Source: Candidatus Nitrosopumilus sp. (lineage in GTDB: Archaea; Thermoproteota; Nitrososphaeria; Nitrososphaerales; Nitrosopumilaceae). From it: a stretch of DNA of 38,508 bases. The stretch lies in contig JAANXA010000019.1 of NCBI GenBank assembly GCA_018263505.1, positions 1 to 38,508 of the forward strand, read 5' to 3'. Positions 24,356-27,761 of the stretch are shown piece by piece. Each line of letters opens with the position of its first letter. The stretch's first letter is position 1. A program made the position numbers and the translations under genes. The notes under the pieces are model-generated. The model saw only the letters and a list, made by a program, of their open reading frames with translations, was not told the origin of the DNA and made no database searches.

Positions 24356-25681
24356 TTATCCTAATCCCATTTTTCTAAGAGTACCTTGCATCTGACGACC
24401 TTTAGATGCTTTCATCATATTCTTAGAATTTTTATAATTTTTTAACAATTCTTTAACCTCACTTTCGGGCCAACCAGAGCCACGAGCAATTCTTTTGATA
24501 CGAGAAGAATTTAGTAAATCAGGATCTGCTTTTTCACCTTTTGTCATACTTTGAATAATGTATCTCCATTTTGAAACTCTTCCTTCCATTTGATTTACTT
24601 GATCACCTTTAACCATCCCTGAAAGGCCAGGCATACTATCAAGAAGTCCTTGCAAAGATCCCATCTTTGTTACTTCTTCTAACTGATAAAAGAAATCATC
24701 CATATTCATTTTCCCACTAGAAATTCTTTTCATTCTAACATCATCACCTTCATTTTCTAATCGTTTTGCTAAATCCAATACGGCTTGAATATCACCCATT
24801 CCAAGTAATCTACCAACAAAACGAGTGGGAGAAAATTTTTCTAAATCATCAATTCGTTCACCAGTTCCAATGTACATAATTTGTGCACCAGTTGCAGCTG
24901 ATGCAGCAAGAGCTCCACCTCCTTTTGCAGAACTATCTAATTTTGTTATAATAACACCACCAACAGGAATTGTTTTATGAAATGCTTCAGCCTGATTGAA
25001 ACATTGTTGACCAATAGTACCATCAATTACAAGTAATGCTAAATCAGGATCTGCAACTTTGTTAATTCGATCCATTTCATCTAACAAATCTTGTTCTTCT
25101 TTATGACGTCCAGCAGTATCAATTAGAATAACATCCAATGGTTGACCTTCAAAATGTTTTAAACCATTTTTGACAATATTTGGAGAATCTTTATTATTTT
25201 CTTCACCATATACTTCAACATTAGATTTTTCACACATAGTTCTAAGTTGAACTAAAGCACCGGGACGATAAGTATCAGCACCAACTACACCAACTTTATA
25301 CCCTTGTCGAGTCAAAAATTTTGCCAGTTTTGATGCAACAGTGGTTTTACCACTTCCCTGAATCCCCAATAAAATTATTTTATTTTGTTTTCCAGGTTTA
25401 AAATCAAATTCAGATTCATTCCCAAGCAACTTTGATAATTCATCATATAGAATTTTTACAATGTGATCTTTACGTGAAAGTCCAGGTGGAGGAGTTTCAT
25501 TTAATGCTCTTTCTTCCAAATGTTTTGTAATTTCAAGAACTAAACGTACATTAACATCAGATTGCAATAAGGCCCTTTGAACATCTTTAGATAATTCTTT
25601 GATTAAGTCTTCATCTATACCCGAAGATTTTACAATTTTTTTAATTGCATCACTTAAACTACTTTTAAGTCCATCAAGCAT
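24356..25681 (-). CDS. srp54: Signal recognition particle 54 kDa protein
   Basis: 441 residues. N domain to about residue 90, then the GTPase domain with GIQGSGKTTVASKLA (G1) near residue 107, DTYRPGALVQL, DTAGRHKEEQDL (G3), TKLDSSAKGGGAL (G4) and GTGERIDDLEKFSP. The Met-rich M domain follows from about residue 300 (DDFFYQLEEVTKMGSLQGLLDSMPG) and binds SRP RNA and signal sequences. It targets nascent membrane proteins together with 7S RNA and FtsY. Its start overlaps dph6 by 8 bases. Confidence 0.96.
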   Translation of the reverse strand: MLDGLKSSLSDAIKKIVKSSGIDEDLIKELSKDVQRALLQSDVNVRLVLEITKHLEERALNETPPPGLSRKDHIVKILYDELSKLLGNESEFDFKPGKQNKIILLGIQGSGKTTVASKLAKFLTRQGYKVGVVGADTYRPGALVQLRTMCEKSNVEVYGEENNKDSPNIVKNGLKHFEGQPLDVILIDTAGRHKEEQDLLDEMDRINKVADPDLALLVIDGTIGQQCFNQAEAFHKTIPVGGVIITKLDSSAKGGGALAASAATGAQIMYIGTGERIDDLEKFSPTRFVGRLLGMGDIQAVLDLAKRLENEGDDVRMKRISSGKMNMDDFFYQLEEVTKMGSLQGLLDSMPGLSGMVKGDQVNQMEGRVSKWRYIIQSMTKGEKADPDLLNSSRIKRIARGSGWPESEVKELLKNYKNSKNMMKASKGRQMQGTLRKMGLG

Positions 25682-26363
25682 TGTAATTCAACTCAGCATC
25701 CACTATTTCAAACCTTCCTCTATAACCATCCCAATTTTTTTCAAATTGAATTATTTTGATTGGATATGAAAAAAGTGGACAATTGGTAACAAAAGTTTCA
25801 GATTCACCACCTTCAAAATTTAAATTAAATCCAAATTTTTCAGATAATTGAATTAACTTATCAATTTCTGATTTAGATATTGGTTTTCCTAACCATGAAT
25901 CATCAAGACCGTCTGACGATACAGTAGTCATAATAAAATCAAAATTTGCATCAATTAGATCATTCATGTATTTTTTTGGTTCAGAATCCCATAAAGGAGA
26001 CAACACAGAAAGTCCTAATTTCTCACATACAGACGAAAATTTTTCTTTCTGAAATTTACTTTTTATTCCACCATGAACTAATCCATCAATACCAAATTTT
26101 TCTTTTGCGGATTTTAGCAAATCTTCAAGTAAAATTAATTCATCATCTATATTATCAGAATTGGATTCGAGAGTCAGATGAGGAATATTCATTGATTGTG
26201 ATTGAAGTTTTGTCCACTGTAAATTTGGATGATGTAGTAGGTGACTCTCATCAGATTTAGCAAAAATACTTAGTAAACAAGTTATTTGGTGGCCTTGTTG
26301 TTTTGCAAGGTAAATTGCATATGCACTATCTTTCCCTCCTGAAAAAAGAGATGCTAATTTCAT
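25674..26363 (-). CDS. dph6: Diphthine-ammonia ligase (Dph6 family)
   Basis: 229 residues of the PP-loop adenine nucleotide alpha-hydrolase superfamily. ASLFSGGKDSAYAIYLA at residues 4-20 is the ATP-pyrophosphatase loop. GLVHGGIKSKFQKEKF, LSPLWDSEP and GLDDSWLGKPI are conserved in the MJ0570/Dph6 group, and GGESETFVTNCPLF ends the core. The predicted reaction is ATP-dependent amidation of diphthine on elongation factor 2. It follows aIF5A and a guide RNA and overlaps srp54 by 8 bases, so it lies in a translation-related unit. Confidence 0.88.
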   Translation of the reverse strand: MKLASLFSGGKDSAYAIYLAKQQGHQITCLLSIFAKSDESHLLHHPNLQWTKLQSQSMNIPHLTLESNSDNIDDELILLEDLLKSAKEKFGIDGLVHGGIKSKFQKEKFSSVCEKLGLSVLSPLWDSEPKKYMNDLIDANFDFIMTTVSSDGLDDSWLGKPISKSEIDKLIQLSEKFGFNLNFEGGESETFVTNCPLFSYPIKIIQFEKNWDGYRGRFEIVDAELNYNA

Positions 26364-26405: not shown

Positions 26406-26470
26406 GGACGCTTCATTACTCATAATCCTCATCAAAAATCAGACGGCTTTTCCGCTCATCATCAGCATCC
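26406..26470 (-). ncRNA. C/D box guide sRNA (dual guide), putative tRNA-Met C34 guide
   Basis: Read 5' to 3' on the minus strand: terminal stem GGAUGCU, box C AUGAUGA, 13-nt guide GCGGAAAAGCCGU, box D' CUGA, 3-nt spacer, box C' UUGAUGA, 12-nt guide GGAUUAUGAGUA, box D AUGA (C to A variant), terminal stem AGCGUCC. Both stem halves pair over 7 bp with one G-U. Guide lengths and the D'-C' spacing match archaeal C/D sRNAs. The D guide complements an ACUCAUAAUCC target, that is the CUCAUAA anticodon loop of elongator tRNA-Met. Counting five bases upstream of box D falls on C34. It sits 3 bases after the aIF5A stop and 42 bases before dph6. Confidence 0.85.
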
Positions 26471-26473
26471 GAA

Positions 26474-26884
26474 TTAATTTTTTATTCTCATTATTTTTGT
26501 TTTGTCCATTACAACCCAGTACTCGACATTCTGACCATTTTCTAACTTTCCTTTAACTTCATCATCAATCAAACTAATATCAATTGTTTCAAAAGTTTCA
26601 GAATCCATTACCTGAACTGTGTCACCATTGATTGAGATGATTTGACCAACTTTTTTGTTAATCATAGGTACATGTATTTGCATGCTAACGGGTCCCACAT
26701 GAGGTCTTTTTTGACCATCAAAGATTCCTTCAGCTACAATTCTTGCCTTTGCAGCACCGTGTTTTCCAGGTTTAGATGTATCATATTCCTTGATTTGACA
26801 AGGTTCACCACTAGGTTGATCAGAATGGGGTAATAGAATGTAAGATCCTATTTTCAAAGAACCAAGATCAGATGGCTTACTCAT
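26474..26884 (-). CDS. eif5A: Translation initiation factor aIF5A
   Basis: 136 residues. The hypusine loop DTSKPGKHGAAKARI is near residue 36, with the modified lysine in GKHG, followed by an OB-fold domain (VPMINKKVGQIISINGDTVQVMD). It helps peptide-bond formation at difficult sequences after deoxyhypusine or hypusine modification. TTTTAATA on the minus strand (26907-26914) is about 26 bases before the ATG, so a leaderless start is likely. The next elements downstream are the C/D sRNA and dph6. Confidence 0.95.
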   Translation of the reverse strand: MSKPSDLGSLKIGSYILLPHSDQPSGEPCQIKEYDTSKPGKHGAAKARIVAEGIFDGQKRPHVGPVSMQIHVPMINKKVGQIISINGDTVQVMDSETFETIDISLIDDEVKGKLENGQNVEYWVVMDKTKIMRIKN

Positions 26885-27634: not shown

Positions 27635-27761
27635 CCCGTGGTAGCTCAGCCTGGTAGAGCTTCCGGCTGTAGTTGTTGGCTTTAGATGGCTGACCGAATA
27701 ACAGCATATCAGGCATACAGAAACCGGGTTGTCGGTGGTTCAACTCCGCCCCGCGGGACCA
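27635..27761 (+). tRNA. tRNA-Tyr (GUA) with a 50-base intron at 37/38
   Basis: Acceptor arm CCCGTGG (27635-27641) pairs with CCGCGGG (27751-27757). The discriminator A and an encoded CCA follow. D stem GCTC/GAGC, anticodon stem TCCGG/CCGGG, T arm GGTGG-TTCAACT-CCGCC. The anticodon is GTA, followed by G37. Intron 27673-27722 leaves the loop CUGUAGA, as in other archaeal tRNA-Tyr. A bulge-helix-bulge is supported: exon CUGU pairs with intron ACAG (27717-27720), with bulges AG^U and AA^A at the splice sites. The outer intron helix is weak by eye. Confidence 0.93.

Follow-up and report, generated by a model that had tools for sequence, protein, structure and literature searches.

A box C/D sRNA of a Nitrosopumilus-like archaeon, probably derived from the aIF5A transcript, with predicted methylation targets in elongator tRNA-Met and 23S rRNA

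The 38,508-nt stretch of DNA analysed here (the window, which is contig C11 of a 1.37-Mb Nitrosopumilus-like genome, G000) encodes a box C/D sRNA, and we regard its presence at 26470-26406 of the minus strand as confirmed. Very likely this is a double-guide sRNA, probably originating from the aIF5A transcript, for the 2'-O-methylation of C34 in elongator tRNA-Met and of the nucleotide that we equate with E. coli C2510 in 23S rRNA. We propose that L7Ae, Nop5 and fibrillarin would bind the C/D and C'/D' motifs and that the D guide would recognise elongator tRNA-Met by base pairing to its anticodon arm, preferably while the intron is still present; C34, which lies opposite guide nucleotide 5 counted from box D, would then be 2'-O-methylated by fibrillarin. 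The D' guide would pair with CGGCUUUUCC in 23S rRNA and direct methylation of the C presumed to be equivalent to E. coli C2510.

Read on the minus strand from 26470 to 26406, the order of the elements is GGAUGCU-G-AUGAUGA-GCGGAAAAGCCGU-CUGA-UUU-UUGAUGA-GGAUUAUGAGUA-AUGA-AGCGUCC (Table 1). Boxes C, D', C' and D thus stand in the order of the class, with a guide before each of boxes D' and D and a stem flanking the whole. The terminal stem comprises 7 bp including one U-G pair, one unpaired G lies between its first arm and box C, and the D'-C' spacer measures 3 nt (UUU). This layout had already been proposed in a sequence-only reading of 26406-26470, and every element and coordinate of that proposal proved correct. 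The fold of the single sequence is unremarkable (z -0.77), as is expected for box C/D RNAs.

Table 1. Features of the sRNA gene and its neighbours (window coordinates)
Feature	Position	Strand	Remarks
Box C/D guide sRNA gene	26406..26470	-	Mature RNA taken to run from stem to stem; 65 nt
Terminal stem, 5' arm GGAUGCU	26464..26470	-	Compensatory changes
Box C, AUGAUGA	26456..26462	-	Sequence and alignment of relatives
D' guide, GCGGAAAAGCCGU	26443..26455	-	Nucleotides 2-11, counted from box D', complementary to CGGCUUUUCC of 23S rRNA
Box D', CUGA	26439..26442	-	Identical in 104/104
Box C', UUGAUGA	26429..26435	-	UGAUGA in 102/104
D guide, GGAUUAUGAGUA	26417..26428	-	Complementary to U/ACUCAUAAUCU of elongator (pre-)tRNA-Met; position 5 opposite C34
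Box D, divergent AUGA	26413..26416	-	AUGA 50, UUGA 50, other 4, CUGA 0 (n=104)
Terminal stem, 3' arm AGCGUCC	26406..26412	-	Compensatory changes
aIF5A gene, upstream	26474..26884	-	Pfam PF21485/PF01287; probable host transcript
Diphthamide synthase gene, downstream	25674..26363	-	Pfam PF01902; neighbour in 104/104 family loci

Comparison among genomes supports the sRNA strongly. A blastn search (E<=0.01) detected homologs in 133 of 151 genomes sampled from the host family. A covariance model trained on 48 sequences gave hits, with a best E of 4e-16, in 288 of the 350 genomes examined from the class, which comprises ammonia-oxidizing archaea and their relatives; other families and orders are among them, and the weakest hits (E near 0.01) need not be orthologs. 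In these 48 sequences, pairing in the terminal stem amounts to 98.8% and six of its seven pairs show compensatory changes, a result equalled by none of 500 shuffles, and shifting the stem partner destroys the pairing. All seven pairs are compensatory in 27 outgroup sequences, in an alignment that is fitted to the covariance model. The core of the D' guide, GAAAAGCC, is identical in all 104 relatives read while the flanking guide letters vary, and the D guide retains GAUUAUGAGU in 97 of them. Besides the sRNA, the model picks up another, lower-scoring match in the host and in many genomes of the family, perhaps a further C/D sRNA with the same boxes.

Box D departs from the consensus CUGA in the window and in all 104 family relatives, so that the divergence noted in the sequence-only reading was borne out across the family; the UGA is kept in 102 relatives. 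Box C is mostly AUGAUGA and reads AUGAUUA in 13 relatives, each of which has UUGA as box D, and the internal C'/D' motif is canonical. In the usual kink-turn scheme, the letter lost from box D is the partner of the second G in box C and formation of the sheared G-A pairs remains possible, and divergence in one box is tolerated among archaeal box C/D sRNAs. Because box D is not CUGA, assembly of the RNP at the terminal motif is less certain, and judged from the sequence it may be weaker than usual, while the assignment to the class is unaffected. The genome encodes a fibrillarin (C23:183-833, E=2.8e-89), and both guides are complementary to a tRNA or rRNA with the target at the fifth nucleotide, as described below.

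Three genes for tRNAs with a CAU anticodon are present in the host, whose identities we assigned from their stems: initiator tRNA-Met (L013), tRNA-Ile(CAU) (L015) and a single elongator tRNA-Met (G000:C24:11742-11856, L049) with a 40-nt intron. The D guide had been proposed to fit the elongator tRNA-Met with C34 at position 5, which calls for a host gene with the matching anticodon arm, and this gene does carry ACUCAUAAUCU. The D guide pairs with A31-U41 and its fifth nucleotide lies opposite C34. The anticodon arm and the register of the proposed target hence stand, and two details require revision: its last letter is U, which makes the outermost pair G-U, and the intron splits nucleotides 30 and 31, so that guide nucleotide 1, which pairs with the last intron base, can do so in the pre-tRNA only. 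At the initiator tRNA-Met and tRNA-Ile(CAU) loci the match to the D guide spans just 7 contiguous nt, and on this basis the guide would distinguish the elongator from the other two. Both the register and the extent of the match single out C34 of the elongator among the CAU tRNAs. Only 3 of 5000 shuffled D guides reached at least 11 contiguous pairs with a host tRNA, and the matching anticodon arm is present in all 84 genomes in which the sRNA and an elongator tRNA-Met gene were both read. In the half of the genome read for outgroup G156, its elongator tRNA-Met was not found.

ARAGORN places the intron of the elongator tRNA-Met at an odd position. Reading the gene as GCCAG, followed by a 40-nt intron ending in GGCAAU and then by ACUCAUAAUCUGG, gives an anticodon stem of 5 bp without mispairs (CCAGA/UCUGG) that closes the loop CUCAUAA; since this reading restores stem and loop, we infer that the intron lies between nucleotides 30 and 31. 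The elongator tRNA-Met genes of the family (L049; relatives in L118-L147 and L227-L287) likewise have their intron at this non-canonical position, where it splits the anticodon stem. Of the 84 genomes, 73 have a pair between guide position 1 and the final base of the intron (A-U in 59, G-U in 10, U-A in 2, G-C and U-G in one each), and 11 have no standard pair there. Changes on both sides are seen in the U-A cases (genus g15) and in the G-C case (g2). These few events are suggestive of pre-tRNA-Met as the substrate, without amounting to proof.

For the D' guide, the 13-nt target ACGGCUUUUCCGC derived in the sequence-only reading does not exist as such. Its exact sequence occurs in the host genome only in the sRNA itself, and a search allowing 2 mismatches added nothing except two unrelated sites. 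Shorter contiguous pairing, in contrast, locates a site in 23S rRNA: the inner part of the guide forms 10 contiguous pairs with U-CGGCUUUUCC-UA, directly behind the conserved motif CUCGAUGU. If the A of CGAUG is E. coli A2503, as we assume, the fifth nucleotide before box D' lies opposite C2510, which we take to be located beside the peptidyl-transferase centre. Counted from the A-loop and not by alignment, C4456 of human 28S rRNA appears to be the equivalent of this predicted site. An rRNA match of at least 10 nt was also reached by 49 of 5000 shuffled D' guides (about 1%), and the match alone is thus modest evidence. Conservation strengthens it: every site found without mismatch in 23S rRNAs of the family reads CGGCUUUUCC, and the guide core is invariant there. 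Among the 27 outgroup RNAs, 25 carry GAAGAGCC as their D' core. The 23S rRNA of outgroup G156 (half of the genome read; archaeal LSU rRNA by Rfam) has CGGCUCUUCC, and L327, the sRNA of that genome, carries GGAAGAGCCG; a change at one position in the guide is accordingly matched in the target, and 10 pairs are retained. This covariation, one event observed with one outgroup 23S rRNA, makes the predicted rRNA target unusually well supported for a case based on sequence alone. In Nitrosotalea-like genera the pairing with 23S rRNA extends over just 8 contiguous nt. Two outgroup RNAs (L341, L343) keep the D guide and lack the D' core, and six others (L332, L333, L338, L339, L342, L345) keep the D' core with a different D guide. 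As either guide is kept without the other, the two appear to evolve as separate modules. At L208 (G052), too, one guide is lost or changed and the other kept, which suggests modular turnover of targets.

The modest match also bears on the possibility that only the D guide is functional, acting on C34 of tRNA-Met, and that the D' guide is an orphan with a coincidental match to 23S rRNA. The frequency of equal matches among shuffled guides and the 8-nt pairing in some genera would agree with this, as would the Pyrobaculum tRNA-targeting sRNAs reported without a second target (PMC7994747). However, an 8-nt core that is invariant amid variable flanking letters, the joint change of guide and 23S rRNA in G156 and the retention of the core in six outgroup RNAs whose D guide has changed all argue against an orphan, and we consider it improbable. 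Conservation of the D' segment could alternatively reflect a structural hairpin (GCGG-AAAAG-CCGU), as four pairs are possible in the window sequence and the minimum-energy fold contains an overlapping hairpin. The arms are not kept among the 104 relatives, though (TCGG..CCGU, TTGG..CCGU, GCGG..CCAU, CGAG..CCAA and others), and the invariant letters are those opposite 23S rRNA. The hairpin was rejected on these comparative data and is barely credible.

A further alternative arises from the genomic neighbourhood. In the window the sRNA begins 3 nt past the stop codon of aIF5A, and the genes for diphthamide synthase, SRP54 and Pus10 follow it. The distance to the aIF5A stop codon was measurable at 74 family loci, and at 57 of these the codon precedes the sRNA by 0-6 nt. 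The sRNA is probably transcribed with aIF5A and processed out of the 3' end of this transcript. The same arrangement, together with the constant downstream gene, would fit a conserved element of the aIF5A 3'-UTR whose kink-turns bind L7Ae and which controls the aIF5A mRNA or the downstream diphthamide synthase without being a methylation guide. Yet both guides fit real targets in the right register, with covariation between guide and rRNA, none of which regulation alone needs, and aIF5A was not detected beside the RNA at the outgroup loci L321, L323, L326 and L327. We therefore deem a purely regulatory element very unlikely, while a regulatory role could coexist with the double-guide function that we favour.

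Guiding of methylation to C34 of elongator tRNA-Met is already known in archaea, namely in Pyrococcus (sR49) and Haloferax volcanii (PMC2584109, PMC7994747), and the work of Joardar et al. 2011 on Cm34 guides is cited in the excerpt of PMC6601510. The Haloferax guide also pairs with part of the pre-tRNA-Met intron (PMC2584109). The window sRNA shares with the Haloferax guide and sR49 the stand-alone archaeal C/D architecture, the predicted target nucleotide and perhaps the part of the intron in the pairing, whereas it differs in lineage and sequence, in the predicted 23S target of its D' guide and in its non-CUGA box D, the Haloferax RNA being known here by description. In addition, the intron at 30/31 allows only one intron base to pair. 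At gathering thresholds, Rfam returned no C/D match. The best match at relaxed thresholds is sR41 (RF01126), which aligns over the full length with 29.8 bits, far below the curated gathering score of 54. The D guide of the sR41 consensus (..CUAUGAGcg-CUGA) fits a CAU anticodon in the same register as that of the window sRNA, but the D' guide is different and box D is CUGA instead of AUGA.

In humans, C34 of elongator tRNA-Met has two box C/D guides, SNORD97 and SCARNA97 (PMC6601510, excerpt); unlike the window sRNA they are eukaryotic and two separate RNAs, and the excerpt states no rRNA target for them. SNORD49A/B guide Cm4456 of human 28S rRNA (PMC9941101). They are eukaryotic snoRNAs, whereas the window sRNA is archaeal and has a predicted tRNA target as well. 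We know of no tRNA target of SNORD49A/B. Archaeal double-guide C/D sRNAs usually target two rRNA sites within 100 nt (PMC4644070, PMC7994747); the window sRNA has the same architecture, with two guides and a short D'-C' spacer, and combines one predicted tRNA site with one predicted rRNA site. In the tRNA-targeting sRNAs of Pyrobaculum one guide serves the tRNA and the other is without a target (PMC7994747, a review), whereas both guides of the window sRNA have well-supported predicted targets in two classes of RNA. What is new is the RNA of this lineage, its combination of a predicted tRNA target with a predicted rRNA target, and a box D that is consistently other than CUGA. A limited literature search found no description of this sRNA, nor of box C/D sRNAs from ammonia-oxidizing archaea, which are hardly described. 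One RNA that can be traced through the class is predicted to link modifications of the wobble base and of the peptidyl-transferase centre, and its constantly divergent box D offers a natural test of how far archaeal RNPs need the terminal C/D motif.

Behind the sRNA of several other genera we observed a short copy (7-10 nt) of the D' core in antisense (e.g. AGGCTTTTCT), similar to the 23S target and 0-3 nt behind the 3' stem: L168, L180, L184, L191 and L213 (g9), L202, L204 and L207 (g6), L198 (g8), L157 and L210 (g12), L181 (g20), and L192 and L197 (g21). The copy is absent behind the sRNA in the window species. When the 3' flank was included in the fold, pairing between copy and D' guide beat the terminal stem in some genera only. 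The copy may serve as a mimic of the target within the precursor or, alternatively, as a T-rich terminator. It is conceivable, though rather unlikely, that one sRNP made from the aIF5A mRNA 3' end links two methylations, that of the wobble base in elongator pre-tRNA-Met and that of the ribosomal catalytic core, and that, in several genera including Nitrosotalea-like ones, the target copy behind the 3' stem would keep the D' guide inactive in the precursor until 3' processing switches it on. At L191, L180, L202, L198 and L192, which represent several genera, a small cysteine-rich and apparently leaderless ORF (of the type MKGLCHVCLASNVE...) has its start in the interval that separates the sRNA from the diphthamide synthase gene. 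Elsewhere in the window, the plus strand carries a tRNA-Tyr(GUA) gene at 27635-27761 whose anticodon loop is interrupted by a 50-nt intron; the default tRNA scan overlooked it, and it was detected by Rfam and, once introns were permitted, by ARAGORN.
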